NCBI RefSeq assembly: GCF_000003815.2
Contig: NC_049984.1
Coordinates: 14,175,664 to 14,239,663, forward strand
DNA: 64,000 nt
Direction of reading: 5' to 3'
DNA from: Branchiostoma floridae
Taxonomy: Eukaryota > Chordata > Leptocardii > Amphioxiformes > Branchiostomatidae
Part shown: positions 15,201 to 63,821 of the stretch, piece after piece
Layout of the letters: each line of letters starts with the position of its first letter
Position numbering within the stretch: position 1 is the first letter of the stretch
Position numbers and translations under genes: made by a program
Notes under the pieces: generated by a model
The model's database searches: none
What the model was told of the DNA's origin: nothing
Seen by the model: only the letters and a program-made list of their open reading frames with translations

Positions 15201-18200
15201 TTTCGGACCCATAAAGTAATATAGGTTTAATACAAGAGTCGAAAAGCTTGTTTTTAACAGCTAGTGGGCAATCGGATTTGTCAAGTGATTGCCTGATACT
15301 AAACAAAGCTTTTAGACCCTTGTTTCTTAGATGTTTGTTGTTGGCCTTGAAGGTGCCAGCTGTACTTACCACTATACCTAAATAACAATATGACATAACA
15401 ATTTCAATTACATTACCATTAAACAAAAAGAAACAATTCTTTGGTAATCTACCTCCCTTGGTGAAGACAATAATCTTAGTCTTTTTTAAATTCACCTTCA
15501 GGTTCCAATGTTTACAATACCTTTCTAATCTAACTAGACATGATTGCAAGCCTTGTTGAGACTCGGAAAATAATACAAGATCATCTGCATACAAAAGACA
15601 CGGTACTTTCCTATTGTGTAAACTAGGAGAGTTGCAACAAATATCATCAAACTCAGAGGTTATATCGCTAATAAATAAATTAAACAAAGTTGGACTTAAA
15701 TTACAGCCTTGTCGGACCCCACAGTTAGTTAAAAAAGGCGCTGTAAGGCCGCCGTTGGTTTTAATGCAATTTGTAGTTTTTGAGTACATGTTTTTTAATG
15801 TCTTTAAGAATTTTCCTCCTATTCCAAGGTTGTTAAGTTTGAAAAATAGACCTGCTCGCCAAACGGAGTCAAAAGCTTTGCTGAAATCTACAAAACATGC
15901 ATAAATTTTTGCATTTTTGCTTAGGTATTTGCTGACTAAAGTGGTTAACACAAACAAATTATCAGATGTTCTAAAATTTTTCCTAAAACCGGCCTGTTGA
16001 GGTTTGAAAAGGCTGTACTGTTCTGCATAATTGACAAGACGATTGTTTAAAATAGAGGTGAATAATTTTCCTAAGCAACTAATGATTGATATTCCCCGGT
16101 AGTTATCAGGGAGTGAGGTATCGCCAGATTTATGTATGGGTACGATATGGCTGAGGGACCAATCGTCGGGAAAATAACCGTTCTGTAAGCAGGAGTTAAA
16201 TAGGTGTAGTAATGGGTTCTGTAGGATTTGTTTACCGCATTTCAACATTTCATTTGTTACCATGTCGCTGCTACTAGATTTATTGTTCTTGAGGTTTGAG
16301 ATTGCCGTGTTTAATTCTTCAGCTGTTATCGGGGAGTCTAGTGTGGAGTTTTCTACAGGTGTGAGAGGAGATTGGGGATGTATTTGGGCGTTTACAGTGG
16401 TGGAGAGTTCAGTTTCAGAATTGTTAATAGCGTCAGTTGAGCGTTTGTCAACTGCACTAAAATGTTCCAACCACATCTCATTTGATATTTGGGAATTTTG
16501 TTGCGTTTTATCTGGTTTAAGTTTGTTAATTAGTTTCCAAAAGCCATTTGGGTCTTTTTCCCTAAGGGAAGAAAGTTGGTCCATGATTTGCTGGTGAAAG
16601 TCTCTCTTTTTCTTTCTTAATAGTTTTCTATACTCCTTCTTTCTTCTGAAGAACTTTCCTCTAATATATGAGTTTGACGGATTTTTCTCAAGTAACGAGG
16701 CCAAGTTATTCAATTCGCGCTTCATTTCAGTACAGCTTTTATCGTACCATTTTTTATTTCGGGCTTTTTGTGAACGCTTTTTGTTGACTCTTACAAAGAG
16801 TGATTTGTGACCGACGTCCCTCAGCACTGAGTTCAAGTCGGAAACGTAGTTTTCAATATCTGCCTTTGCGTTTTTAGTTTCTATTACTGACATAGCGTTT
16901 AACTTGTCTGTTATGTGAGGTTGGCTAAGGGATTCAAGAAATTTTTGTGCTGAGTTTTCGTTCCAACGGAATCGTTTCGGGAGTGGTTTTGTGTTTGGAT
17001 TTTTATTTTTTGGCTTGTTGTTGTGGATAAAAGGCGTTGTGCGAAATATTACTGATAGCATGTTATGGTCGGAAAATATGGTTAGGGGGTTTACGCGAAA
17101 TAGAGATATGTGTTCAAATAATGGCTGGCTGGCAATCATATAGTCTACGGTACTACTTCCGTTAGGTTGGTGGCAAGTAAAATTGCCCTGCAAGTCACCG
17201 GCTACTCTACCGTTAAGGACTCTAAGGTTCGCTTGAATACACAAGTCGGTAAGAAATCTGCCGAATTTATTAGGAGGAGCTTTATCCATGTGTTGTCTGT
17301 CCTGATTATGATTTGAGGGGTTGTTTGGTATGTTTTCATGAAAGGTGTCTTCTTCTACAAAGTCATTTAAATTTCCAAGTCGGGAGTTAAAGTCACCACC
17401 TAGAAGGATAAAGCCCTCGGTATTATATTTTGAAATCTCCTCTTCTAGAATTTCGATTACGTGGTTTTCGGCAAATTTGTGAGTTTTAGATGTACTTGGA
17501 CTGATATAAACGGAACAGATAAACAGATCTTTGGATAACCCCAGTAGCTTTCGATCTACTCGCACCCATAAAACATCTGTCGATTTTGATGGTAGCTGTT
17601 TAACATAATGTTTGTATTGGTCTTTAAAGAACAATATTACACCTCCAGAATACCGTCTTGCTCGTTTGTTCTTTTCCCGATGTAAGTGGAAGTAACTGTA
17701 GTTAGGGATATTGATTTTTGTTTTGTCAGAGCTCCACGTCTCAATAAGCGAGATAAAGTCGAAATTATTTACATGGGACAAGAAATCTAAATCATCTAAT
17801 TTTGATCCTAAACCGTGTACGTTCCAACAACAGAAACTCTTATTTCCTCCTGGAAATACCTTCATATCAGAGACGGTTCAAAGAAATGTAAAAATTAAAA
17901 TATTGTGTCCTTATCCTAGCCGAATCTACAACAGTTAACAACTATAGATATGCATTATTATCATCATTATTTTTAAATCCTATTTCTTACTCAGCAGTTA
18001 CTAATTAATACTAAATCGCTAAAAGTAATATTATGTGTACAAAGTGAAAAATATACATTATACGAATGTATTACAGAATACTATCTAATCGCATATATAT
18101 CTACCTCTACCACATGGAAGGAGGCCCTCTCCACGGCGTGCCAGGTTGCCACAACCAGGCTGGGGGCTGGAACTGTTGTTTTGAGTTCTGGGCCGAACAA

Positions 18201-21200
18201 GGGTAGCTGTCGGGAAAGCGTCCACTTTTTCCTAAGAGGTGGCTGGGCGAGGGGAAGAACGGAGATATCCCCCATGGTCCGGGTTGATGGCTGGGAGGCG
18301 GTAGGTGAGGCGGTGCTCTCCACGGCCCCACCGGCGGAGGTCCCCATGGTCCCACGGGCGAAGGTCCCCATGGTCCCACGGGCGAAGGTCCCCACGGTCC
18401 CGCGGGTGGAGGTCCCCACGGTCCCGCAGGTGGAGGTCCCCACGGTCCCACGGTCGGATGGAGTCCGAAAGGAGGCGGTCGACGGTCGGGTGCAGGGCAG
18501 CGGTCAGATGATCCATTGACCGGATCATCCGAAGAGGTGTGGTTGGATGACCGGCGATCCTGGCTTGGAGCTGAAGGGTGTTCCTGTTTACGTGCTGGCT
18601 GGGTGTGTGGGGGTGGGCACGAACGTGTAGAAGGTTCTGGGGGCCCACCTGCCGGTGCACCGAGCACAGCGTCCCTGTATGAACGATTCGGCGTGTTTAA
18701 TACAATTCGTTTGGTGACCTGTGAAATAGGGCGTAGAGAAAGAGTGGTGAGAGCGCCAACCTAGTGGAAAGGGGGTATCAAAGACATCGAAAGTATCTGC
18801 ATGAGCGTGTGCCTGTCAAATAACGTTCTCTAAACTTTCTTCGAGGTATCGCAACCACCAAGTGGAGCCAGTCGTATAGAGAGAGGAGACGGTTCGCGAC
18901 AACCGCCTTAAAGACGCTCGGAATGAAGGCAGGGAGCGACAGTGTCGAGAAAAGCGTCTTAGAAGAGGTGCACGGTCTTGAAGATCGGGTAAGACATCAT
19001 GACTCACTTTTAATTTTACTTTACAACGAGAAATATGTAGCTGCATTGGTAGTATTGTGATCCAAAGAGGCTTGTTACGGTACTGCAGGGAAATCTTCGG
19101 TTTTGATATTTCGACTTCTGGACATGTTATGGTCGTGCTTTTTGAGTGGTAGATAGCTCGTGGATAAAAAGGAGGTTAACTTCAAGATCCGGTTTAGTTT
19201 CAGACTTTGAAAAATAATAACTATAAGGGTTTAACGGATTGTCATTATTTGTATTATTTCATTTCAACTCAGATATTGCAGAGTAAGGGACAACCCATTC
19301 ACTTGTCAGGGGACCTGGGTATCGCCACAGCCAACGTCATAGCCTCCATGGTCTTCGGCAGGCGCTTTGAGTACGACGACTCGTACTTCCGCGGCCTTAC
19401 CGACGCCTTGTTACTAGCCTACATCAAGATAGCAGAGAGCCAGGCCATCAACGTGTTCCCCGCGCTACGGTTTGTGCCAATCGGTGAGGATGTAGGTCTA
19501 AAGTAGTTATATCTTTTTGGCAACGCCTAAGGGGCGGATGCATTTATCATTTTTACCTTCATGAAATGGAGATATTGTAATCAGTGATGACTTTCTTTGT
19601 TTGTTTGTCCTAGTGTGTGTCCACAGTTCCATATAGTGGTGCGTACCTAAACTCATATTCAGGTTCAGGTCTGGATTCAAGTCCAGCAGTTCAGGTTCAG
19701 GTCCGGACTTTTAAGTCCGGACCTGAACCCATCATTGCATATTATGTGCGCTGGAAAGTTTTCTTTTTTGAGGGGGAGGGGGGATGGTGCATATAAAATT
19801 GCATGTTAGCATGAACTAAAGTGCAATGTGAAAAATACATGCAAATTATATACAGCCAGTGTAGACACAAAATGTTTTTTGTCCTTTTCCAGTGCAAATT
19901 TCACTGTCTATGGAAGGTTTTAGATGGTTTAGAGCAAGAAAAGGGAATATAAGTGATAGATAGCTTTTTGCAAGTCCGGACTTGAGTCCGGACATTTAGG
20001 TTTTTTTTGGACTTGGACCTAAACATTTTTAGGTCCAATTCCAAGTCCGGGCTTTAGGTACGCACCACTAGTTCCATAGTTATAATTTGAATGCTGGACA
20101 CGTTGGGAACACTGACATGAAGTTGGGACAAAGGTGCCATAAAGCTCCAATAAAGGTTGCAGGAAATGGAATGGAAAGTTTTCCCAATGGGCCTTAGTGT
20201 TTTATTCATGTTGTACTCAAGACAGCTTAGAGATTGATTGAACCTTAGAAACAAGGGCCTGCATGAATGTACAAAAAGATGGATTTTTTGTAGTTATCTT
20301 TCTGAGGGTATGAGATCCTCTTGAACAACGAGATGAACCTACATGTATTGCTGCCAACATTTGTGGAATAAAAAAAAACAACATTGAAGTAGTTGGGGCC
20401 AGAAAATGACGAAATGATGTCATTGGCAGTCAACAGGGCAGGATGGGAAGCCCTCGACTGTGGCAGGAAGGTGGACGACTTCATCCGGGAGGAAATACAG
20501 CGGCATCGCGAAACCGCGCCTCCTGGCGGCGAGCCCAGGGACTTCATCGACATGTGTCTTCAAGAGATCGTCAAGAACAAGGCGGAGGTGACGTCAGGGG
20601 CGGGAATCACCGAGGAGCACACGGTCTTCATGGTGCATGACCTTTTCTTCGCGGGGATTGAGACCATCCATTCCACCCTGCTCTGGGGGTTTCTGTACTT
20701 AGCCATGCACCGGGACATCCAGGAAAAGGTAGAGTAGACCATAACAAAGGTTTGTTTGAAATGAGGACAACTAAACCAGAACTTCTGGAATCTGGCTTTC
20801 ACAGCAGCCATTTCGTAATTTTTCCTGTTCGTTATTGATTGTTTCAATCATATTCTTTGAGTGTCAAAATTACAATTTTTGTTTCAATTTGTTGATGGAT
20901 ACTGTACATGTTAAGATTTAAATTTGTTTATAAACCATTTCATTGTGTGCAAGGGCCTGGTCACATACACGTTGGTGTGATCGTCATACGAACGTCATTC
21001 ATAGAAGTGTATGTGCCTTGTTACTTTAAAGACTGCTTTATTTCAATTAGGACCTCAATGTACGCGCAACTCATGCGAACTTGAATATAAACACTTGTGA
21101 CTGCACCCAATTTAAATTTGATCTTTGTCGGCTGTTAATTCCGTCGCAGTCAGCTGATCGCGAATTACAAAGCATCAAAATCGTGCGACGACCTATCACT

Positions 21201-24776: not shown

Positions 24777-27700
24777 CTACAAGTCGTTTTTCAGCGCGGC
24801 GTGCCAGTTCCTCTGTCCGCTGTGCGAGGAGTTGTAGTGTGTGCGCATCAGTCTCCACTCGTCCGTGATGTAGTTACACAGGTCGCAGGTGAACCCGCCG
24901 TGGGCATCGTGCAGTCTCATGTGCAGCTCTACAGTCTTGCTGTACAGGTGACAGCCACATATGGGGCAGTCGTGTGCGCCCGCCACAGACTGACGCTTCT
25001 TCGGTGGGAGCATCCGCGGGCTGCTGTCTATCAGCGAATCACCTCGGCCAGGCTGCGTTACCGTTTGATTGACGTCCACATTCTCGTCATCTTTTCCCGT
25101 GGGGAGGGAGGACGGGAGGTCGATATCCATGACGTTTGTGACCGATGAGTGCGCTTCTTTCACGTGCTGTTGCAGCTGGTTCCCCGGGACCTCCTGTCCG
25201 CAGATGGAACAGACTGCGCTGGTCTTCTCTCTACAGTTCATCACGTCCCCCCGGAGGAGCTCGATCGTGGTGGCGAGGAAGCCACACTCCGGGCAGAGCA
25301 GCTTCTCCTTGTGGACGTTGCGGATGTGCGTCCTCATCTCCCGCCACGACGCCGTGGAAAACTCACACTTGTCACAGCTGAATCCGCCCTTGTCATCGTG
25401 GAGCAGCATGTGGCGTTCAACGCTCTTGTCGGAGACTTGCTCGCCGCATATCCCACAGTGCCCCACACTGCCTTGTTGGTCATCCTCTTCAAACACATCA
25501 CTGTCCATTTCTAATTCATCGTCTGAGAGTACCATAACTTCATCATGTTGATCTGAAGCCGTGCCGTGAGACGACAAGCCGTTGTTGACCGTCCCTTCCC
25601 CCTGAAGTGTTGTTTCCCTGGTGCTGTTCTCTCCCTTGCTGTCCTCTGCCGTGCAGCTGACCGTACCCTGTGGCCACCTGACGTGTGGCATCTTCATGTG
25701 TTTGGTGAGCATGTTGCGGTGCATGCACATCCCACAGAGCGGACACTGCACCTGGAGGTCTTTCTTCTCAGGCATGATGGTCATCAGTCCCTGGTTCACC
25801 TGAAGCGACACGTTGGAAGGATTTTGCGACCACTGGGGGTGAGGTTCGTCTAGATGTTTTCTCAGCGAGTCTGAAGGAATCTTCTTGCTACATAGAGGGC
25901 ACTCAATTTCGACGGCTGATGCGACGTTTGACCCTCCCTGTGTGCCTGGGTTTGCTGAGACGGGCGCTGCAAACGCTCCCTTGGGCCACTGCACGTGCGG
26001 CATGTCCAGGTGTTTCCTCAGCATCCTCCGGTGCACCTTGATCTGACACAAAGGACACTGGACAAAGGGGCTGGCCTCTTTGTCCTCCCCCTTCCCTGGT
26101 GAAGCGATGGCTTTGTCTGTGGACAGAACGTGTTCGCTGTCCATGTGCGATATCAGAGCAGAAGACTGTAGCTTTACTCCACACAGCGGACATACTAAAT
26201 GAGTCAGACTTTCTTTCGTGTTCCCACCAGAGTGGCATCTTTTCAAGTGCACCTGCATTTTAGTCTTGGCCCAGCTGCTGTAAGGGCAGTTGGGGCACGT
26301 GTATTTCTTCCTGACTCGCTCGTGCCAGTCCACGTGCTTCAGGATCTCCTTCCAGGTGTCGGTGGTGAAGTCGCACCTGGGGCAGCTGAACCCGCCCTCG
26401 TCATTGTGCAGCTGCATGTGTCGCTGCACTGACTTCCTGTACAACCTGACGCCGCACACGCAGCAGTGTCCCGAAGATGTCAGCTTGTCCTTGTACTTCT
26501 CAAAGTCATCTGCCTCCAAGTCCTGAGTCTCGTCATCCTCCATGCTCACATCTACAGCTTCTTCACCTTCTTCCAATACTCTACCATCTCCCTCAGATTC
26601 CCTGTCGCTGAACGTACAAGAACCGCTTTTAAAATGTTCTTCCAGTGTCGCCTTGGAAGACGTCTCAAACTCACAATTCGCACACCTGTACGCACTGTCA
26701 TGTTTGGAGGCGAGATGTGATTCAATGTCTTCCCATGTGGCCGAAGAAAAGTCACATTGATTGCACTTGAATCCTCCCTCTGAATCGTGCAGCTCTTTGT
26801 GTCTCTGCAAAGAATGACTCTTTATCTCTACATTGCACACCGAGCATGTTTCAGTATCCTCTGTATTGTCTACAGTTTCTCCTTCCACATTTTGATCAAT
26901 GTCTGGTTCTTTCTCTGTGATGTTATTTTCGTTAGCACCACCCTTAACTTGATCAGCTGTTGCTTCTGGGTCAGTTGCCATTGCTGTCTGCGCCCCTTTA
27001 CAGACATGTTTATCTAAAAATGATTCCGACAATGTCTCATACTTACAAGACGAGCATTTCAGCTTGTGGTTTTCCTGGAGGTGATCTTTAATCTCTGGCC
27101 AAGACTCTGTTTTGAATTCACACTTATCACAGGAGAATCCCCCTTCCCGGTTGTGCAGTGTTTTGTGGATGGTGACATCTTGTCCTTGAAGCTGCTCCCC
27201 ACATTCTGCACAAATTTCAAACTCCTCATCTGCAGCAGTTTCTTCATCTTCCAAGATTCCTTCCTGGGATTTTTCATCTTTATCAATGTCTTGAGAATGA
27301 CTTGCTCTCATGCTGCTGTCACTTTCACGTCTTGTACTACTGGATTTTCTTCTTCCCTTGCTTCCATCTCCTTCCTCCTCAGCCACGCACACTTCCATGT
27401 GTTCCGCAAACACCTCTGTGGACCAGGTCTCAAAGTCGCAGTTCTGACACCTCTGCTTGGGCTTGTGCTTCCTCTGCATGTGCGAGCGCATCTCGTGCCA
27501 CTGGTCAGTCTCGAAATCACAACCATCGCAGGAGAAGCCGCCTCGATCGTTGTGCAGGTCCATGTGCCTGTCCACGGTTTTCCTGTACAGGCGTGCGTTA
27601 CAGATGGGACACACTATGGACACTGTCTTCTTTAGTTTGACTCCAGATGATGACTGCCCAGTGCCTTTAGCTCCTTCGTCATCAGCGATCCTCGTACTTC

Positions 27701-28322
27701 CTTCTGAGTCTCCCCAGGTCGGATCCAGCCTCTCTGCATCTTCCTCTCCTTCAGACATTGGCTCTTCCTTGACTGTCATGCCACTGTCTCCTCCTACATT
27801 GTTTCCTAAAGACGTAGAGGAAGACAGCCCGCGTCTTGCAAACCGTCCCGAGGATGCAACAGAACTCGGTTGTTGGATCCTCTGGGCTGCAGCTGGACCT
27901 GACGCCTGCGAGAAATGTTCGAAAGACGGTGTGACGTATGAGACTGCTTCTCTCGGCCTTTCTTGTGATAGTTGCACAGGTGGTACAGTCCATCGGACCG
28001 GTAAGTCGTTGCCAATTGAGACAGCTGACGTGCCCTGAAGCCCGTCCTTCTGAAGCATCAGATGCCGCGACCTTAGCGCCTCCGACAAAGTGGAAACGCC
28101 ACTGTTCCCCGGCTGCCTGGTAAAGCTGTTCATTGCGGGAAAGCAGTTCACAGGTCCGTGTCCCAGCATCATCTGTTGATGCTCTGTCTTGATGTGGACA
28201 ATCACATCAGCCTTCCCGGTAGAGACGGCGAAGTGACACAGCCTGCACTTATAGAGGCACAGCACCTCGATGAGGTCATCAAAGCTGTTCCCCGACAAAG
28301 CTGAGGTCAAGTGCATCTCCAT
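24777..28322 (-). CDS. Large C2H2 zinc-finger protein with repeated GGF modules
   Basis: A single coding exon of 1181 aa, starting at the ATG at 28322 (MEMHLTSALSG). The frame is open further upstream but has no ATG before a splice acceptor (TTTCAG at 28423) that ends the exon at 28422. After an N-terminal finger (YKCRLCHF...HIKTEH) come six copies of a compound module: CxxC, HxxxLH, GGFxC, CxxC, W-x-E-[IM], HxxxH. Most copies are followed by a third finger. Four single fingers of the type CPLCxxK...LRKHLD.PH.QWP lie between modules 4 and 5. Acidic Ser/Glu-rich linkers separate the modules. It probably binds nucleic acid in the nucleus, but no known orthologue is recognised and the target is unknown. 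Confidence 0.85.
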   Translation of the reverse strand: MEMHLTSALSGNSFDDLIEVLCLYKCRLCHFAVSTGKADVIVHIKTEHQQMMLGHGPVNCFPAMNSFTRQPGNSGVSTLSEALRSRHLMLQKDGLQGTSAVSIGNDLPVRWTVPPVQLSQERPREAVSYVTPSFEHFSQASGPAAAQRIQQPSSVASSGRFARRGLSSSTSLGNNVGGDSGMTVKEEPMSEGEEDAERLDPTWGDSEGSTRIADDEGAKGTGQSSSGVKLKKTVSIVCPICNARLYRKTVDRHMDLHNDRGGFSCDGCDFETDQWHEMRSHMQRKHKPKQRCQNCDFETWSTEVFAEHMEVCVAEEEGDGSKGRRKSSSTRRESDSSMRASHSQDIDKDEKSQEGILEDEETAADEEFEICAECGEQLQGQDVTIHKTLHNREGGFSCDKCEFKTESWPEIKDHLQENHKLKCSSCKYETLSESFLDKHVCKGAQTAMATDPEATADQVKGGANENNITEKEPDIDQNVEGETVDNTEDTETCSVCNVEIKSHSLQRHKELHDSEGGFKCNQCDFSSATWEDIESHLASKHDSAYRCANCEFETSSKATLEEHFKSGSCTFSDRESEGDGRVLEEGEEAVDVSMEDDETQDLEADDFEKYKDKLTSSGHCCVCGVRLYRKSVQRHMQLHNDEGGFSCPRCDFTTDTWKEILKHVDWHERVRKKYTCPNCPYSSWAKTKMQVHLKRCHSGGNTKESLTHLVCPLCGVKLQSSALISHMDSEHVLSTDKAIASPGKGEDKEASPFVQCPLCQIKVHRRMLRKHLDMPHVQWPKGAFAAPVSANPGTQGGSNVASAVEIECPLCSKKIPSDSLRKHLDEPHPQWSQNPSNVSLQVNQGLMTIMPEKKDLQVQCPLCGMCMHRNMLTKHMKMPHVRWPQGTVSCTAEDSKGENSTRETTLQGEGTVNNGLSSHGTASDQHDEVMVLSDDELEMDSDVFEEDDQQGSVGHCGICGEQVSDKSVERHMLLHDDKGGFSCDKCEFSTASWREMRTHIRNVHKEKLLCPECGFLATTIELLRGDVMNCREKTSAVCSICGQEVPGNQLQQHVKEAHSSVTNVMDIDLPSSLPTGKDDENVDVNQTVTQPGRGDSLIDSSPRMLPPKKRQSVAGAHDCPICGCHLYSKTVELHMRLHDAHGGFTCDLCNYITDEWRLMRTHYNSSHSGQRNWHAALKNDL

Positions 28323-29957
28323 ATTTGGGAGCAGGTGTTCAGTTGGGGCAGGTGAGAAGAGAAATTTACAGCTCACATTGAAGGAACAGCATCCCCTTCT
28401 CTCTCCATAGTGACAGCCACACCTGAAATAGACAAAATAAAACGACTTTGTTAGGAAAAGGCTATGTAGCCAGCATTGATACTGCTGAGTTGAACTGTTA
28501 AAATTGTACAAACAACAATCAAACTGTTGCAAATATGTGCATGACCAGGTCCTAAAAGAAGAGAAGCACATCAGAATAATCTACCAGCAAATCTATAAAC
28601 TTTAAAAGGGGCTTGGAACCATGTTACAGTATTATTCTGTATACTCTGTGTGTTAAAATGACACAGAATGGATAAAATGGTTTATGATGGCAAAAAATAC
28701 TATATGTAACATTTTATCATAATACACTGGAGGCACTGGGGGACCTTATGCTTACAAACCAAGATTTAATAGTTTCATATAAGAAACATGAATTGAAACT
28801 TAAGTCTGGGTAATTTTTTGGCTCTCAATCAGTGCTGTCTGAGGGACCCGCCCCTAGGTTGGAAATTTGCTTGTTGGGATGGGAAAAACATCACCCTGTC
28901 AGCCCAATGAAAACATATTTTTGTAACCTTAAAATCACAGATTATCAAATAAAATCATAACAACATGGGATCCTAAACCATGAGTGGGACATAGAAAATT
29001 TAAAGTTGGTGATGTTCTCAATTTGAAAGTTACTCACAAAGTAACCACAAAAGACTTAATAACTTCTGATACACTTTAAGAATATTGATATGATTGCCAG
29101 CTCAACCCAACCCAACCTCAAAACAAAGTGACAAAAACCCTCACGCCCCAACACCTTTAACAACTTATTAACTTGACACGGCCCAGTCAAAACAAAACAA
29201 AGGCCACGCCCCTTTGGCGAAACCTTGGGCACTACAACAACAATGGATCGCATCTGAGACCTTGTAAACTTCCAGTAACAGAAGTACAAAATCATTTTGT
29301 ATCAACATTGAAATATTTAAACAGTCTCCTGCCTCAAATCAAAACATGAAAACAAATCATGACCACTATTACGTTACAACAAAAATCATATTCATAATCT
29401 TTGGCCAGAGCTCGAGTATTCTTAACAATCTATTCCGATACTGGCTCTACAAGGCAGAGATTGTTGACTTTTTAACATATAGGATATTGAATTAAAGGCC
29501 AAAGAAAAAATCCTGCGTACCAGATTTCCCCAGACAGTAGGCCCCATAGCCCACAGGCCGAAAAAAGCCCGGAATTTTTCAGGGGGCCCAGCGCAGGGCA
29601 ATCATCACAAAAAATAACAGCAAATTTTTCACGGGTCGTTTTCTTTCCTCTTGTTAACGTACAACTTACACGACAACCTGAACGTTTGGTAGCTTGTGTG
29701 GATTTTTCTGGAGTGAGAATTTTAGGGAATTAGAGAGAAAAGTCGATTGTTTATTAGGAGAGGCGTGCAGGAAAAGCTAGTCTGGCGCCGGGTCAAAAAT
29801 AAATCGCAGACCCCGAGCGTGCATAATAAATTTCCCCCTGCAAAAATAAACACGTCTCATCGCTTCACGCAGAAAAAACATTCGCCATTCGTGAGGAAAA
29901 TTGCAAGAATTTGAACCTGTTGTTGGTTTAAAATTACCGATTGTTCAGAAAACTCAC

Positions 29958-38800: not shown

Positions 38801-41800
38801 ATCACCGGAAAGAGGTTTTAATAGGTGTGATATTTCAAAACGTCTGACCGAATCTTGCATTTCCTAAAACTTTACATTGAGATGGTGCATGCCTCAATAA
38901 TGCACAAAAGGAGATGAGACTGGTCCGTACAGCATAAGTACATAATACATGTACAGCATAATGTGTGGTGGGTGAGATTTACACAGATTTACATTCCACT
39001 CAACAATTATTGGTAGATCATTCCACAGGAGCACATCAGGTGTGGATTTGTGTGGGGGGTAGTAGTGTGACATAGAGAAGACTAGATTTTAGACTGGTGC
39101 AGTGTGTGTGGGGAGGGGGGTAGCAGTGTGGCACAGAGAATGCTGAAGTACTAGATTATAGAACGGTCTTATGGTGGGAGAGGGTAGCATTGTGGCATAG
39201 AGTAAAGAACAGTTAGTAACAAAATATTTGACACACACACGTACGACATGAAAGAGGAACAGAAACAGTGTTAGATCAACATATAACAGGAACAACTTCG
39301 AAGACACGAGACACAGGTACAGTTTACAAGACGAACAACAAACAACAAGTCAGGTATCAGTAATGTAATGTAAGGATTAATTTGTGCGCACATGTTCATG
39401 TTGTAATGATTACATTGTGACTCATCAAATCAAATTCAGTGATCAGACAATTTGGGGTTCAATCCACGGTGAATGTACCGTTTGATTAGTTTACAGTGTG
39501 AATGAATGCTGTGTATTTCCTAAACAATTGAAGAAGGTGGCCCGTTTTTTTTTAAATGAATAGATCAGGAACGCAACGCATCGGCGTACGTTGTAGTTCA
39601 ATTCGAAAACGGTAACTGACCAGGTTTTCAAGATGCACCTAGGCCTTTAATCAGTAGGCGGCGCTACGTGAAACTTACGTCTTTTTCGCCGTGCTCCATC
39701 AGGTCCTTCAGAAGCCCACACAGTTCACTGTCTTCAATAGTGCCGCTCTTATCCTGCCAGAATTAGAAAAAAAGATAGAATATCAGGGATTCATAGGAAA
39801 TTTCATTATTCCAGCAAACAGATTCTCCACAACGGATAGATACTAAGTTAGGGTGGAAACAAACGTTCTTGAAAATTACCAAGCGTGCTTTCTGACACCA
39901 TGACTCCCCACATAAGTCACATAGTTCAAGATCACGTGGTCATCGAGTCATTCCGCTTGACGAAGATTGGAGTGTCATGTGGAAATTTGAGTTAGCGTGC
40001 AGATATCTATCACTTCTCTTTCAAATATGCGAACATACTAAGATTACTCGTTTTAATGATGATGATTTAGTGTTGACACTTGACGACCCATACCTAGCTT
40101 GAAACAGACAGTCTGGACTATATTTGTGAATATGCAAAACCTTACCTTGTCATAGTGAGCGAAGATTTTGTCAAACTCTTCGCGGCTCACCCTTGACCCC
40201 TGTGGAAAAGATACGGCATTAGCATGTTGCCTTGGGCTGTGCTGCAAGCTGAGCTGTGGTCATGAAATGTGTTTGTAGTTTGTGTGGCTTGGACGGCCAA
40301 CTGATACTTGATTCTCCCAAATTTTATACCTACTGCTACTATGGGGTTTGAAAATGTTACAAAAAGAAGGTAGCTTAAAGTTATTATTTTACTTTATTCT
40401 TAAATGAGCTTTGCTGTTGCCTACAACTGTTAATACTCTTTGTTTTATTGTGTATGATGAGAAAAGCAGGGAGGGAGAGGGAATTCTTACCTCGAACTGT
40501 TGAAAGGGAAAGACATACGAAAAATGGCAAACATTATTCTCACTTCACAACATGCAATTTTCTCAAGGATGATTTGAGCCTTGATAATAGTAAGAACATT
40601 TCATAACTTTTTACGCATTTCATGATCGGTATTTTTCTCTAAAGCAAATTTATTTTCTATCTAGTTTCTTTAGCAACGAGTTGAACTGGATCTTTTTCAT
40701 GCACGGATTACAAAAATGAAACTCATGGCCGCCATGTTTTTTTTTTCACTGACGCGATAACAATACAGTTGCCTAAACCATGCAAGCTAGGTTAGATTGC
40801 TTGACTAAAAATTGAGCTTATCAACTAGCAACATACCCTACTACTATCAACTAGGAGGCACATTACATAGCCATTGCAAGCCACATTGCTTTATATTTTG
40901 AAGATGTGTTAATAACATAGAGCAAGGTACATCAAGACACGAGCACACAACAACAGACATCGAAAGCAGGACGCATGCAGAATTGAAGCCATGAGTAACG
41001 GGCAGGTAATGTATATCTCAGATAGGCATGTAAAAGAGTTCCTCCCAGGGAGCCATACTCACGATCTATGGACATGAACAGCGTGAGGGGAAAGAAAGTG
41101 GTGTCGATGAATCGTGAGACACTAAGGGGACAACACACAACACGTTACACTTACCAGCTATCAAAATATTCAACTCTGAGCGAGACCATGGCTTTTTTGG
41201 TGATGACTATCTATGTATGAATTGTGACATTCTCTTTATATCAAAATATTCCATGGCCTTTTAGATTCTCTTCTTCGCAAGAGAACTAAGTTTTGCGTCT
41301 TTGTCACAGACAAGTATACACAATTAGGGTAGTGAGCTCACTGTAACGACGGAAAACGTGAATTCCCTGATTTCAGAAATACGACCTTTTAATTCTTTGC
41401 TTTATGGAAATACTTTGACAAAATTCATCGATAGTGAGGGTTGTTCCAAAACCATACTCATCAACATCAAGTATGCCTGTATATCGACGTATTTTGACTG
41501 GACAACGTCTCAGTAGATAAATATAGATACATGTTGTCGTCTGTAGATCCAATTAGCTGAGTGCCCTTGCAGCTTGAGATCGTTTGTTAAAACTGGAAGT
41601 TTGATTTCCCTTCAAAGTTGCAGGGAAACGCAATTATTTACATCTTCAATGGGTTCTGGTTCTGTCACACAAAGGTCAATGCCCTCTGCAATAGAACCTC
41701 TCTTGTGTAACAGAGTTCCGTGACAAATGGTTGGTAAAATGCAACCGACAAGTTTTCGCTGCCTCTCTGCCCGGTGTCATTGGTCATGACCAATCTGGAG

Positions 41801-44800
41801 ACAAACCTGTGTCAAACCCGTATCTGCCGGTGCAGACTGCATTTGTCACTCGGTGACGGGGTGCGGGGATGGGGTTAATAGTGTTGAAGAAAAACTCCCC
41901 AAGCATGACGGGGGCGACAGAACGGGTGGAAAATGTCTCACCACGAGAGAACAACACGATGTATCACGAACAACCACAGTCAGAGATCACGAGATATGAT
42001 ATACTACCATTTGTACAAGTAACGTCACCTGGCTATAGACCAGGCGCTGCAGTCTACAGCAAAGAAATCGAAAAGCGTCTGTTCAGGGGCATTACACCCA
42101 CTCTTAGAGTAACACAACAAAACTGGGTCTTTCAGGTACTAGCATCAAATTGCAGTGTAAGTACTTACCTTTTTCAAATACACAGATGGACTGTGGCCAA
42201 TTAGAGAAACACCTAAAAACAGGAATTTATTTCTCGTAGACGCTGTGAAATACTTCAAACGTTTAGACACTTTTTGGACGTAATATTCAGCAAGAAAGGC
42301 CGTGTGAAAGTTTAGGTCAAACATGATCTAACAAGTAAACTTTGCGCTGTAGACACCATGTGTAGAAATGGTAGTACAGACACCAGGTTTAGATTATGTT
42401 GCAGGTATTTTAACTCACCTGAAATTGCGTGAGGAAGTTCTCTTTGACAGGGAGCAGTCTGGAGAAAGGAAAATGTAAATGAACGAACGATATTTTGACT
42501 GATGAAATATAACTTACACAGTGAGTACTTATGTAGTGAAACTGTTTACTGCAATATTGATAGGAGAAAAAAGTTAGGTACTGTAGTTTCAAAGATTGCT
42601 GACAGCCTTTCAGCCTTCCATAAGGAGACTTGAAGGTAACAATAAAGATAGCTTTCTTGATATAATGACGTTGGCCAGATATCATACATTTCTAAACCCA
42701 TATATTTGTAAGGTGTGGGTGGACATGGCAATTTTCTTGTGTTTTGATTTCTGCCTGCTGAATCAGCGCCGAATGGCATTCTAGGACAAGGGGGATACTA
42801 ACAGATAGAGGGATTCGACACTCAAAGACAGACACTTCATACAAACTTTGACAGTTCCTTTAGATCCAGTTTCCCATCCTCATTGGTGTCGAATATCTTC
42901 AGCTGTGAGAGAATATATTCACCTTGGAGTCAACTGTTCTACGGTAACTAATCTACTGATACTACGGTCACAATTGGTAAAGGGGTCCTGCCGGGTAGTT
43001 TACGGGCTCTTTTTATTTCACTCTCGAACATAGCTCCGTGGGACACCCTGCGGTTAGCGGGCTATTTTTCGGGCTCGGTAGGGCCTACAGATTTTTTTTA
43101 GATTCGCAGTTAAAATAAGCCCGGGACCCGGTGATTAATAGGCGCCTTAGCCTAGTCGTGAAGACACCGTGAGGAACAATAACGGTATCCAGCAGTCCAA
43201 TGGTACATATTTGTGGTTTTAAAGCCCGTCTAAGGCCTTACGGACACCTTAAACCCCTTACGGACACCGATGCAACTGTGGCCGTAGCATAATTAGGTGT
43301 TACGGTTAGCGAGTTACGAACGGAGGGTAGAAAAGGTTTTGGGATACGAACTGTGCCATTTCTTTCAGCTCCAGTTTCCTGTCATTGTTGGAGTCAAACA
43401 TCTTCAACTGCAGAGGGAACATTAGTAGTGGTGTTAGGTTGGTAAGGGTGTTAGTAGTGTAAGGATGCAACATATACAAAAGGGGTCTAGGTATGAAAAT
43501 GTGTTATATGTAGTCCCTGTCGGTAAAGCGGGAGTGCCTGTATCAGTTACCTGGACTACTAGTAAGATTGTCTTTATATAAGTTGTTATGTGCTTGTTTT
43601 TAAGGATCCAGATTAGAACGCGTTTAAGGGTCCAGTTAAAAGATCCATTAGAATACAATTAAAAAATCTTACAAAAGTTATAAATCGCGTTATTATAGGA
43701 ATAAGTATGGTCCTATTAAAGGGATATGTCGGATAGAAAGTGGAATACCAGGTATCATTAGAGGTATAATAATCATGGGTAGATTATTGTAGAAGTCACA
43801 AGTAATATTGAGCTTGTTTAAAAATCTTAGAACTGTACAGCAGTAACATAGTAGCATTCATTGTCATTTAATTAAATAGGCTTTAGCCGTATTCGGGAAA
43901 CAAAAGGACTACGAAACGTCTGATATTTTCGTGCAATTGTATGTCCCGATGACACATTACAAGCGACATGCAATAGCTTATACATACATGCAATGTCTAT
44001 AAAAACAATTTTGAACATAAGTAGTCGATCTACTGTGCGTTCAGGCATAAGAAGAAGGGTTTACACTGGTAGCAATACAGCTAACGTCGTTGACAGTACT
44101 TACGATGGTCTCCACGTATTCGGCTAGCTTATCCTCGGTGACGTCTTTCCCAGCCTTCGATAGCAGATCTGTTAGGAAACTCTGTGTTGGAAAGGATACA
44201 ATTTATAGAGTTTTAGATTCCATTTGAATGCGTTTGTGCATTGCCTCTAAAGTTCAGATACAACCTTTTTTTTAGACATGCCTGATGTAGGGTATCCTCA
44301 ATGGCAAACTATTGCCTGGTCGTTTAGGCAGTTACTTTGATGTAATACAAGTCCACGTGTTTTAAGGTGTGTGAGTCAGGTAATAAATAGGAGAGTGTGT
44401 GCTTACTCTTAATTCCTCGCTCTCGATGTAACCGCTGCAGTCCGCGTCATACTTACGCCAGATCTGTAAGACACGAGCAATATATCAAATAAATGCCAAT
44501 GACTCTACATACAAAAAGATTATGTAGCTGAATGCTTCTACATTTCACAATGGTTAAATCGCTAGCAATATGCATCATAGCAATATGCAAAAAAAATGCA
44601 GCGGTGACTGTTTTGCATTATCATAATGTTAATACTACGCCTTCAGTATATAGCAATATTCCTGATTTTGTGTCTAAGGCTCTTTCTTGATATGAGTTTT
44701 ATGGCACACTGTTGCAGACAGTGGAGTGACACCAAACAGTGAATTTGCTCAATAAGCCCTAAGAGCTGCTGAGGTCACGACAGGTAACCCTGATGGAGAC

Positions 44801-47800: not shown

Positions 47801-50800
47801 TTTGAAATAGATGGTTCCAGCTAACCTGCAAATGCAGAGTGACATCTTCAGTCATTAGAGAGATTTCGTCGGTTAAACGCTAGATGCGGGGACCTTTAAG
47901 TTATTCTTCAGGGGCAATTTCGAATCTCTAATAGGTGCGTAGACTTTCTTTCCTACATAAGCTTTCAACGTAAGGCATCCTTTAGTGGGTGCTTTTACTC
48001 GGATTGACTTGCCATCCTCCAGGAAAGTCAAAAAGGGTCCGGACGGCCTCATGAGAAAGGTGAGCTCAATGGAGGATCAGCAGCCGTTTCCCCGTAACGC
48101 TACCTCTACTGATTAAACACTTTTCTGATAATACTGGTCTAAAGCCCATCCATCTGTCTTTCAATCCACCGGAATGTTTCAAAGTGGGAGTGGTGGACTC
48201 TCAAGCGAATGTGGCAGGGAATTCGGGCACGTTGGCGTCGCAGGAAATTGATCTATGCCTTCGAACGGGTTCCCGTAAAAAGTTTTCACGTAAAGCACGC
48301 TCACGCCTACGGGGGGGGGATTGGCGACGCCAGTTTGTGACGTACGGACGTGGAAGAACTACTTTTCTAGTTTCCTGTTTGAAACAAGATCGATCGTTAA
48401 CGGAGATTGCTTGCTGCCTACAGGTAGGCAGAAAAATGTAGGAAACACAGTAGACAGACAGGCGTATAAAGTTTATAGAAGTGAGCAATGCATCCGGATC
48501 CTGTATCATCAAGAAACTACTTAAGAAGTTAACCATTGAGTGTCTTGGTGACTCATGGATCGATGGCAACCGTGGTTTGTGAAATTCAAAGAAAGAGTTA
48601 TTTCTACAAGTAGTATGCGCTGCGTTACTTGGTTGTAGATCGTATTTGACTAACTACTGCAGTAGCATACAAGACATTAAACGAAGAGAACTTTGGGGTA
48701 CGAAACGTTAACCAACATATATATCCTATGAAAGCCATAATATTTTATTGCATCGTGGCTTGTTGTATTATGCTGTTATACCTTACAGTCACACAATCGT
48801 GATGCAATCTCGCTGCGACCTGAATTGGATTTCTTAAACCTTGAACTAATTTAATAAGTAAAGTAAATCTTTGAAATATCAAATACATGAGTTGAAATAT
48901 CATGCAAAATGTAAAAACATGCCCGAAACAGAACATAGATATGACAAAAAGATTCGTTCTTTTATCTAACGTATGAAATTCATAGGGAACTCTGTCAATT
49001 GTACCTCGGTAGAATGGGGGAGGGGGGTACAAACACCATGACAAAAGTGACTCACCTCCATGAACTCAACGCTTGTCCCGACCTGTTGGCGAAACAGGAG
49101 CAGGAAGCTCTCCTCCATGGGCAAGATGGACGACATCTACAAGTGAACACGTATTTTGTCAACTTTCAAATCATCGTGTGTATGAGGCTATATGCTAAGA
49201 TCTTGCCTATCATTGGCTGAATAATACTGACCCTCAACGTTCTTATTACGATCGACGCATAGGCTGCCAAGATGATGTACATTGACTAGTTCCATTTGTG
49301 ACTACCTACCAGTTGAATTTAATTTGTTTTGTTTTTTTAATTTTTCTGGTGAAATATCCCTCTAATGCCGGTAAGTGTATCACTCAGTGGAGGTAAATGA
49401 GTGGCTAGAATACCGGATTCCAGATCGAGTGGTCAAATTCTGTCTGGACGTTGTGTTTCTTACACGGCTTTTGACCATCAGGTGTAAATGGTTACTTTGA
49501 TTGTGCAAGCATAAGGAGGTGGAAGAAGAAGGATGGGTTCTGCCTCGCAATGCCCTACCGGTCACTCAGTGGATTTACAACCCACTGCCCCTACGACCAC
49601 TAAAAGGCTATGGAGCTACCGGTAAATGTGTGGTTCACTCTGGTTCACTGACAGTACTTTGGTTAGTCTAGAAATGGAGCTGTAAGAACTCACAAGTTTG
49701 TATGCAATTCATCAATGGTTTAGGCTATTTGATTTTGCTACTTTTCTCGTATATATAGCTACAAACTGTCACTTCTGTTTAATATCTTACTGCTGTTTTC
49801 AACAAAATTGAAATTATCTCAGGTTCCAAACACTCTCATGGCGCATGACATGGAATCAACGATTTACGTCCATGATCATGAGCGTAACACCTCTGACCTC
49901 TGTTGTCTTATCTTAGATAGTTTCTGTCAGGTTTAATCGTCACATATATCATTGAGTAATTGTAGATATAGCTCGTGCAAATGTGAATGTAGGGCTTTAC
50001 ATTGTATTTTCATTAAGTAGGGTTGTTTAAGTACTCAATGCATGAAGATTAGTGTTACAAATGGTAAACTAATCTTTGATGAAACAAAAAAAAAACTTTT
50101 TAGACAGACGATGATGGCTCTTACCTCGTTCATCGAAATTCTGCCGTCCTTGTTGTCATCAAACTTAAGCATGATAGCTTCCCTCATGTCCGAGATCTCT
50201 TGGTCGGATGGTTGCTGTAAGACATGGAAGCAAAACAACTCTGAGTCAATGGTTAACACACAAACTACCATTAGTTTGTTGTTTTCATATCCTAACTTAC
50301 CATGCACTGTGTATATACCTTCAGACGTGTGTGTGTGTGTGCACTCACCTCGATTATTTGTTCTTAAATCTAGCTTTATAGAAGAAAAAATACCAAATGT
50401 CTGATTTGATATATCTATGACAAGCAGGCTTAATCTTGGGACTTGCACTACCACTACGAACTACTACTCATAGTAAAAGAGTACAACTGTACTGTATATT
50501 ATTATTGAAATACTGTATATTGGTAATAGAATAGCGCTAAGAATATGAACACTGTTAATAGATGTTAAGTTTTTAAGAATTGACTTGACTATGATAATGG
50601 CAGGTGAGTTGACACAAGGCAATATCCCAAAGGGATTCAACACACCAAATCCCATTGGATACAATATCTCTCGTTAAACTTGGTTGGTTAGCTGTTTAGT
50701 GTCTTGTTATCATCGTTAACTAGCTCTGTTAGTCTAGAGGAGATTAGGAAATCGTGCGAGTCACGAGGGACCACAATTCTCTTACCTCATCCTGTGTGGG

Positions 50801-62800: not shown

Positions 62801-63821
62801 CACGGAGGTTTTTTATCGTTTATCACCGTGTAGTGTTGCAAAACCAAGCTACAAACATCTCAGCAGCTAGCGGGAGGTGAAATCTGGGCCAACGCCAGGC
62901 TGACCGCACAACAAACAACTCGCGGGAGAAAACGCCCTGCGCACTTCAAAATTCAATTTCGGCGCACAATCCCCGGCTGAATCACTATTTCACGCCAACC
63001 CTTTAATGGAACAATATGAGCAGACAGGTGAAAAGCTGCCGGCGTCGGTTGGTATTCCCGATCCGAACGTTTCACACCATAGTGAGTCTTGTACGTGAAG
63101 AGGTACGATTGGGTTCTGGGTGGATTCACCGGACGAGAATGGAAAATAGAAAAATGAAGGAAAGAAAACGAAATGAGAGATGTGGCGTCACTGATGGGGC
63201 CATTCCCTTGCAAGAGGGAACGTTATGCCTAATTTGATATTGGCTCATTTTGCCTGCGCATTATTATTATTCTACCAGTCGATTGAAGGGGGCCTTTATA
63301 ATCCACGATTGAGTTTTACCCTGTTCATTAAGCGAGACGACGGCGACATACATCGCCGCCAATCACTAGGGGAAGTGTTCCGCCCAGAAAACACCCCACT
63401 GCTTCGGTACCACTGATGTGGCACCATTACGGAAAATGGAAAGAGAAAGACGGATTATGTTGCTATCGGTGGATGAGAATGGTAACGAGTGATTTAATAC
63501 CTTTCCTCCCTTCTGCCGAGCCAGCTCGCGAAAGAAATCATCCAGTTCTTTGCCTTCGATAAAGCCATTTCCTACAAAGAAGAAAACACGAGAGAATATT
63601 GTTAAGTTTTATTGAAAGAGAGGATGGGGGTGAAATCGGTTATGATACCAAACATGCTCGAGGTAGCGTCATGTATAGGAATGCGGCGACAAGAAGACAC
63701 AAGTGTTTTTGAACCCACCGTCTTTGTCGAAGTGGTCCCAGACCTCCATGAACTGAGCGGAGGTTAGATCTCCAGTGTACTTGGCTAAAAAGCCGTCGAA
63801 AGCAGCGCTACCCTCCGCCAT
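35872..63821 (-). CDS. CALB1/CALB2-like: Calbindin/calretinin-like hexa-EF-hand Ca2+-binding protein
   Basis: Cytosolic Ca2+ buffer/sensor of the calbindin D28k-calretinin-secretagogin family. Exons in gene order: 63821-63719, 63571-63501, 50791-50786 (microexon), 50214-50125, 49136-49056, 44463-44407, 44181-44104, either 43407-43352 or 42902-42847, 42458-42419, 40496-40491 (microexon), 40199-40146, 39753-39679, 35994-35872. Length is 279 aa with both microexons, 275 without (vertebrate proteins about 261-271). All six loops look canonical: DKDGNGFIEGKE (32-43), DDNKDGRISMNE (79-90), DADCSGYIESEE (123-134), EF4 variable (167-178), DKDKSGTIEDSE (213-224), DIDKDGRLSKDE (258-269). Linkers ILPMEESFLLLFRQQ and LLPVKENFLTQFQ are family hallmarks. 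Every junction is GT/AG and in phase. Intron 2 spans about 12.7 kb. Confidence 0.93.
36514..36523. promoter_or_regulatory. TCTCGCGAGA palindrome
   Basis: Perfect copy of the element usually found in CpG-rich promoters (bound by BANP in vertebrates), here in the last intron of the calbindin-like gene. It could mark an internal promoter. Confidence 0.35.
39050..39205. repeat. Degenerate tandem repeat, three units of 61-64 bp
   Basis: Units start at 39058, 39119 and 39183 with GGTAG(T/C)A(G/T)TGTG(A/G)CA(T/C)AGAG and share ACTAGATT(T/A)TAGA. Intron of the calbindin-like gene. Confidence 0.75.
40491..40496 (-). CDS. CALB1/CALB2-like: 6-nt microexon (Phe-Glu) between EF4 and EF5
   Basis: TTCGAG lies between a strong acceptor (TTTCCCTTTCAACAG) and a strong donor (GTAAGAATT). 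It is phase 0 on both sides and adds FE between LTQFQ and GSRVSREEF. Vertebrate proteins lack the two residues, so the exon is probably optional. Confidence 0.6.
42847..42902 (-). CDS. CALB1/CALB2-like: Alternative EF-hand-4 exon, version A (canonical loop)
   Basis: 56-nt exon, phase 0 in and phase 2 out, encoding LKIFDTNEDGKLDLKELS plus part of a Lys. Acceptor CTCTCACAG, donor TCAAA/GTTTGT. The loop DTNEDGKLDLKE has D1, N3, D5, G6, D9 and E12 in place. It joins in frame to the exon at 42458 (LLPVKENF). It is a homologue of 43352-43407; see that entry. Confidence 0.88.
42996..43228. repeat. Dispersed repeat, copy 1 (between the two EF4 exons)
   Basis: Starts TAGTTTACGGGCT and is colinear with 52208-52418: shared CCGTGG(G/A)ACACC, CGGGCTCGGT-type block, CCTA(G)TCGTGAA, CAGTCCAA and ACATATTTGTGG. 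About 230 bp, same orientation, no coding capacity. Confidence 0.7.
43352..43407 (-). CDS. CALB1/CALB2-like: Alternative EF-hand-4 exon, version B (G6R loop)
   Basis: 56-nt exon with the same phases as version A, encoding LKMFDSNNDRKLELKEMA plus part of a Gln. Acceptor CCCTCTGCAG, donor GCACA/GTTCGT; the first intron bases GTTCGTATC parallel GTTTGTATG of version A, showing tandem exon duplication. The loop DSNNDRKLELKE resembles vertebrate calretinin more closely but has Arg at position 6 (AGG where version A has GGG). Splicing B to A would read CAC TGA, an immediate stop. Confidence 0.87.
44464..49055 (-). other. CALB1/CALB2-like: Intron of the calbindin-like gene without recognised content
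   Basis: 4.6 kb between the exon at 49056-49136 and the EF3 exon. A 133-codon minus frame at 44881-45282 has no family resemblance and is treated as chance. Confidence 0.5.
50786..50791 (-). CDS. CALB1/CALB2-like: 6-nt microexon (Asp-Glu) between EF1 and EF2
   Basis: GATGAG lies between TTTCCCACCCACACAG and GTAAGAGAA, phase 0 on both sides, adding DE between RQKGGK and QPSDQEI. Its acceptor region shares TATGTCTTTCCC with the other microexon, about 10 nt upstream of each. Confidence 0.6.
52208..52418. repeat. Dispersed repeat, copy 2 (intron 2)
   Basis: Diverged copy of 42996-43228 within the calbindin-like gene. Confidence 0.7.
52844..53001. mobile_element. 158-bp MITE with GC-rich inverted repeats
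   Basis: The left arm CACGTTTCCAAACTCGGGCC (from 52844) pairs with the right arm ending GGTTTGGAAACGTG (53001). Arms are about 40 bp with few mismatches and include CCCGGCCGG. AT-rich centre; no clear target duplication. Confidence 0.8.
53354..53500. mobile_element. 147-bp MITE with CATTGCATGCTGGGAGAC termini
   Basis: Left arm 53354-53384 and right arm 53471-53500 are inverted copies (CATTGCATGCTGGGAGAC...GGGCACTAT). The end TCCCAGCATGCAATG resembles the vertebrate ZNF143/STAF element. No coding frame. Confidence 0.82.
57217..57241. repeat. (GATT)n microsatellite
   Basis: Five to six GATT units in the long second intron of the calbindin-like gene. Confidence 0.9.

Follow-up and report, generated by a model that had tools for sequence, protein, structure and literature searches.

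A duplicated, probably mutually exclusive exon pair for the fourth EF-hand in a calbindin-type gene of the lancelet Branchiostoma floridae

A calbindin-type gene on the minus strand of the lancelet Branchiostoma floridae contains two adjacent, homologous exons of 56 nt, here called A and B, each of which codes for the loop of the fourth EF-hand (EF4) and of which exactly one has to be included for the full protein to be read. All coding exons of the gene (63821-35872) lie inside the window, by which is meant the whole stretch of 64,000 nucleotides that was analysed. With a probability put at about 0.78, the gene keeps A and B as a mutually exclusive pair that tunes EF4, and it is likely, as judged from the DNA itself, that both exons are used by the cell.

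Gene structure and protein family

The coding exons were placed by eye from their translations and splice sites (Table 1), and the resulting isoforms A and B are 275 aa long each and lie 8 residues apart. Six EF-hand loops can be recognized by eye in the translation of either isoform. Compared with the PDB at full length, which was done for isoform B only, the protein scores 236.4 bits against zebrafish secretagogin and 226.8 bits against human calbindin over query residues 18-272. With six EF-hands, collinear with the solved structures of calbindin and secretagogin, it belongs to the hexa-EF-hand family (calbindin, calretinin and secretagogin), in agreement with a preliminary description of this DNA, which had proposed a calbindin-like protein and numbered the affected EF-hand as the fourth.

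The slightly higher full-length score of isoform B against secretagogin runs opposite to the preference of the 57-aa EF3-EF4 segment, which with A scores 82.9 bits against calbindin versus 61.9 against secretagogin, and with B 79.1 versus 74.0 bits, a slight preference for calbindin. Among three PDB alignments of isoform B, the EF4-EF5 linker is free of gaps with calbindin only. Among NCBIfam models, isoform A matched only EF-hand models built for bacterial genomes, all below their cut-offs, which denotes EF-hand resemblance and nothing more.

Table 1. Positions in the window of the coding exons and of other features of the calbindin-type gene
Feature	Position	Strand	Basis or remark
Exon with start codon and first half of EF1	63719..63821	-	translation
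Exon with second half of EF1	63501..63571	-	translation
EF2 exon	50125..50214	-	translation
EF2-EF3 linker exon	49056..49136	-	translation
EF3 loop exon	44407..44463	-	translation, 57 nt
Exon 5′ of A and B (EF3 exit and EF4 entry helix)	44104..44181	-	78 nt, SFLTDLLSKAGKDVTEDKLAEYVETI
Two TACTAAY motifs, branch-point-like, candidate regulatory element	43421..43456	-	just 5′ of exon A
Exon A	43352..43407	-	56 nt, phase 0 in and 2 out, reads LKMFDSNNDRKLELKEMA+Q; Arg at position 6 of the EF4 loop DSNNDRKLELKE
A-B intron	42903..43351	-	449 nt, diverged interspersed repeat (~43228-42959) and one AATAAA at 43017
Exon B	42847..42902	-	56 nt, phase 0 in and 2 out, reads LKIFDTNEDGKLDLKELS+K; Gly at position 6 of the EF4 loop DTNEDGKLDLKE
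Exon 3′ of A and B	42419..42458	-	40 nt, LLPVKENFLTQFQ, takes phase 2 from A or B
EF5 first exon	40146..40199	-	translation
EF5 second exon	39679..39753	-	translation
EF6 exon with stop codon	35872..35994	-	translation

Other optional exons of the gene are conceivable. A candidate microexon of 6 nt, GATGAG (Asp-Glu), lies at 50786-50791 (minus strand), in frame between EF1 and EF2, with an acceptor of 8.0 and a donor of 10.8 bits; a scan for 6-nt microexons across 63500-35995 returned, at 5-bit thresholds, this one in sense and none in antisense, and at 4 bits one in each. The second 6-nt candidate, TTCGAG (Phe-Glu), at 40491-40496 (minus strand) between EF4 and EF5, has a donor of 10.8 bits and an acceptor of only 4.0. 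Between EF5 and EF6 there are possible in-frame exons, phase 0 at both ends, at 38440-38408 (33 nt), 38202-38161 (42 nt) and 37425-37378 (48 nt), all on the minus strand; the first and third exceed 5 bits at both ends and the second does not, and since the 5-bit scan also gave 2 rows in antisense, beside 6 in sense that include 2 known exons, chance may account for such candidates.

The duplicated exons and the reading frame

Exons A and B are identical at 41/56 bases. Without gaps, the best match that either A or B finds elsewhere in the window, on both strands, is 31/56, and by a binomial estimate about 3e-8 placements would be expected to reach at least 41/56 by chance. The two exons are therefore homologous, and the exon duplication that the preliminary description had claimed is borne out, together with its coordinates, exon lengths, 449-nt spacing, AG acceptors, phases and donors (GTTCGTATC for A and GTTTGTATG for B). 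The homology ends beside the splice sites: just 3′ of the exons the first 8 intron bases agree at 7 positions and the next 32 at 8, and the upstream flanks agree at 12 of 40. The donor, of the form GTTYGTAT, is unusual and common to both copies (7/8 bases), the 5 of 6 donor-side matches beyond GT having a probability of about 0.007 by chance. An assembly or allele artefact was considered and rejected, as the copies differ at 15/56 bases, their flanks are unrelated, and the 561-nt span that holds both is matched over its full length once in the genome.

The interspersed repeat of the A-B intron (42959-43228) has at least 40 further matches in the genome at 67-80% identity, and partial matches to it lie within the same gene at 52404-52325 and 52312-52204.

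All four exon combinations (A only, B only, A+B, neither) were translated. With A only or with B only the frame is open through all 275 codons. When both are included the junction reads CAC TGA, a stop after 179 aa that precedes the last junction by ~220 nt, and when both are skipped the frame is shifted and meets a stop after 182 aa, ~100 nt ahead of the last junction; the argument that only one-or-the-other use gives a full protein thus stands as first made. As would be expected of a mutually exclusive pair, A and B are neighbours, homologous and of the same phase, they are bordered by GT and AG (the donors being weak), and the protein is broken if both are used or both are skipped. By the so-called 50-nt rule, an RNA is sent to decay if its stop precedes the last junction by over 50 nt. 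Because the stops in the double-inclusion and the double-skip RNA both lie beyond this distance, these RNAs would be expected to decay.

Consequences for the fourth EF-hand

Both versions of EF4 keep the ligand positions D1, N3, D5, D/E9 and E12. At loop position 6, where Gly is described as conserved among EF-hands (PMC9177970), B has Gly and A has Arg; A is the more calbindin-like of the two overall. Judged from the conserved Gly, the Arg of A probably weakens calcium binding. Tested on the isolated 36-aa EF4, the Pfam model EF-hand_1 gives 24.4 bits for B and 20.0 for A, both below the cut-off of 25.4, and EF-hand_5 gives 25.5 bits for B on the 36-aa segment, A being unlisted; on the whole proteins EF-hand_1 scores 116.4 with B and 112.9 with A. 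EF3 and EF4 of calretinin likely form a cooperative pair (PMC3913827), and so the exchange of A for B would tune that pair.

Splice sites and candidate regulation

Splice sites, donors and acceptors alike, were scored with a matrix derived from 15 of each kind, 9 taken from this gene and 6 from a paralogue (described below). The donor of A scores 0.7 bits, below all 15, which range from 1.3 to 10.7 in leave-one-out scoring, and the donor of B 4.4 bits (3/15 lower). The acceptor of A scores 5.1 bits (2/15 lower) and that of B 8.6 (12/15 lower), the others ranging from 0.8 to 11.1. The earlier characterization of the pair as having strong acceptors and matching donors is accordingly only half right. 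Poor donors suit regulated exons, and they also leave room for a failing A. Moving the donors by 4 nt, which would make the exons 60 nt long, gives lower scores (-2.4 and 0.7) and a phase that does not match the next exon.

The two TACTAAY motifs fall in the last 50 intron bases before A and are the only two in the window that lie 50 nt or less apart; they could serve as strong branch points, and they fit ACUAAY, the motif of Quaking. This lead was picked after inspection, and the motif as such is no more frequent than expected (15 in the window against 17.5). Bipartite ACTAAY sites, for which 15.2 would be expected in the window and 12 are present, were set aside; here, as with TACTAAY, only the position stands out. 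Also discarded were a CAC cluster of the RBPMS type 5′ of A, with 3 CAC in 50 nt (4 or more occur in 1.6% of 50-nt windows), and a TGCATG pair at 43967-43992, 5′ of A, the hexamer being common across the whole window. TGCATG, the RBFOX motif, occurs 81 times in the window against 46 expected, a count that 0 of 100 shuffles reach.

Exclusion of one exon by RNA structure found no backing in local folds (z -0.16 for B and +2.26 for A, neither significant); five short inverted-repeat pairs lie in 42419-44181, one of which (24 nt, 75%) brackets B. The minimum length of an intron lies below 449 nt, and steric exclusion by a too-short intron is unlikely because the A-B intron has that length and holds a diverged interspersed repeat.

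A paralogue and the age of the exon form

A second gene of the family lies on the same contig, ~12 Mb away (C6:1948188 onward). Its EF3-EF6 part is secretagogin-like, and the 20 kb examined did not show its first two EF-hands. The EF4 exon of this paralogue is 56 nt long, has the same phases as A and B and is present in a single copy, the next best match to A in the 20 kb being 32/56, at the paralogue's own EF6 exon; the two exons that precede the EF4 exon are equal in both genes (57 and 78 nt). The form of the 56-nt EF4 exon is therefore older than the split of the two genes. Base identity is 42/56 between A and the paralogue, 41/56 between A and B, and 38/56 between B and the paralogue. Since A is about equally near to the paralogue and to B, the duplication may have followed the gene split, or may have preceded it with loss of one copy in the paralogue.

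Constraint on the two copies

Between A and B there are 6 synonymous differences at 10.8 sites and 8 non-synonymous differences at 43.2 sites, which gives a dN/dS of ~0.21. Under neutral change, at least 6 synonymous differences arise in 4% of the runs that stay open. A model in which both copies are neutral is rejected for A/B (p 0.018), and one with a single neutral copy is not (p 0.11-0.19), the test being of low power. In comparisons with the paralogue, likewise of low power, a single neutral copy gives p 0.03-0.07 for B and p 0.56-0.75 for A, and two neutral copies p 0.19 for A, neither model being rejected for A. Neutral drift of one copy keeps the frame, the ligands and the core in 0.4-0.6% of runs if it accounts for 15 differences, and in 7-8% if it accounts for 8. 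It is likely from these comparisons that selection acts on both copies. In favour of both also speak the resemblance of A to human calbindin, the ligands retained in either loop, and the unusual donor held in common although the intron sequence past it agrees at no more than background level (8/32).

Other features of the window

Apart from the calbindin-type gene, the window contains, as judged by eye, an open frame of 1176 aa at 14335-17865 (minus strand) that resembles a non-LTR retrotransposon, with an endonuclease followed by a reverse transcriptase; an open frame of 1264 aa at 24777-28571 (minus strand) with many Cys/His motifs of zinc-finger type; and, at 12275-12679 (plus strand), the first exon of an apparent cytochrome P450 gene. 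A tandem array with a unit of 24 nt (6.2 copies, 87% matches) lies at 18309-18458, and a search with ARAGORN gave no tRNA.

Proposed mechanism and alternative explanations

In the favoured reading, a 56-nt exon coding for the EF4 loop would have been duplicated in tandem, and both copies kept as alternatives. Exclusivity would be enforced mainly by the frame, since RNAs with both exons or with neither would be removed by decay, and the choice would be a regulated competition between A, upstream, whose donor is poor and whose acceptor is rich in branch points, and B, downstream, with better sites. A single buffer or sensor would be made with either of two EF4 variants, the one from B being canonical, and the Arg that replaces the conserved Gly 6 in A would weaken calcium binding and alter the cooperative EF3-EF4 pair. 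A more specific form of this proposal is tentative and rather less than an even bet: two lancelet calbindins would arise from one gene, one with a canonical EF4 and one with an Arg-6 loop, the EF3-EF4 pair would be tuned by cell type, and the choice would be made through a STAR-type (Quaking-like) protein or through branch-point competition at the doubled TACTAAY. If true, splicing would give lancelets the diversity of buffers for which vertebrates came to use two genes, calbindin and calretinin.

Several of the same observations can be read otherwise. One exon might be used while the other, most likely A, is silent or decaying, as the donor of A, the lowest of those scored, its Arg at the conserved Gly and the models with one neutral copy, rejected neither for A/B nor for A against the paralogue, would all allow. 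However, of 19 residues A shares 15 with human calbindin and B 11, and in simulated drift 8 neutral changes leave the frame open with at most 3 residue changes in only 3.7% of runs, compared with 41% for 5 changes, so that only a recent silencing of A fits easily. The unusual donor form is, moreover, common to both copies, and in B the sites are good and the ligands complete; a failing copy is for these reasons an unlikely explanation.

The weakness of both donors could also mean that they go unused and that A and B provide alternative 3′ ends, the protein being cut after EF4 and the RNA ending at an intronic polyadenylation signal. Read-through translations do end soon, as ...MAQFVSQNLFYPPFVTR (A) and ...LSKFV (B), each followed by a stop, an AATAAA lies 3′ of A, and the truncated calretinin-22k is an example of a shortened family member (PMC3913827). 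Yet A and B are both in phase with the exon that follows, and neither AATAAA nor ATTAAA occurs between B and that exon, which makes such ends very improbable. The premature stop of the A+B transcript, placed so as to provoke decay, is what would be expected of a so-called poison exon, where the second copy sets the level of expression and not the type of protein; a poison exon has no need of an intact EF-hand loop, yet one is kept in both copies, and this explanation is hardly credible. The mutually exclusive pair is thus the reading carried forward here.

Comparison with known systems

In vertebrates, calbindin and calretinin are calcium buffers and standard neuronal markers, a role that two genes share. 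An exon choice that varies one calcium site would diversify a buffer without duplication of the gene, and two isoforms that differ at 8 of 275 residues would allow calcium binding to be compared side by side. The duplicated exons of CaV channels code for an EF-hand-like segment. Duplicated mutually exclusive exons are described in calcium-related genes, namely those of the P/Q-type calcium channel and of OGDH, whose exon 4b codes for a calcium site (PMC9177970); these are an ion channel and an enzyme, however, and not small EF-hand buffers. The choice between exons IIIb and IIIc of the chordate FGFR genes likewise stems from a tandem exon duplication with one-or-other use, which predates the split of the chordate sub-phyla, and amphioxus Fgfr amplicons have been sequenced (PMC5703972), but there the exons code for a receptor Ig domain that does not bind calcium. 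The exon duplication of COE genes was rejected as a lancelet precedent, being described as vertebrate-specific (PMC2394523).

Within the hexa-EF-hand family the parallels are looser. Sea urchin calbindin-D32k is an invertebrate calbindin with two predicted isoforms, 1 and 2, but these differ in a variable segment at ~residues 195-212, where one isoform is nine residues longer, and not by a same-length exchange of the EF4 loop (PMC3296734). Alternative splicing also gives rise to calretinin CR-22k, where, in contrast, exons 8 and 9 are deleted and the protein is truncated, with no exon pair involved (PMC3913827). The preliminary description knew of no comparable switch in the calbindin or calretinin of vertebrates, which is in keeping with the calretinin variants named in extracts of that article, which are exon deletions, and with the titles and opening lines of abstracts on calbindin, which are silent on such a pair. 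Extracts of a paper on fly Cbp53E (PMC4500412) do not mention splicing, isoform or exon. The lancelet pair is likewise absent from the titles and opening lines of abstracts in the literature found, and it is quite possible that an annotation with two isoforms already exists.

A close counterpart is alpha-actinin (ACTN1, NM and SM forms), in which EF-hand exons are duplicated in tandem and used in a mutually exclusive manner, a case of alternative splicing described as limited to chordates (PMC9177970), with one version of the EF-hand binding calcium and the other not (PMC6613909). Alpha-actinin belongs to another protein family, and unlike its two versions, lancelet A and B both keep the ligands and differ by Gly or Arg at position 6 and by neighbouring residues. 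By analogy with alpha-actinin, the lancelet pair would be a further member of an established class of mutually exclusive EF-hand exons.
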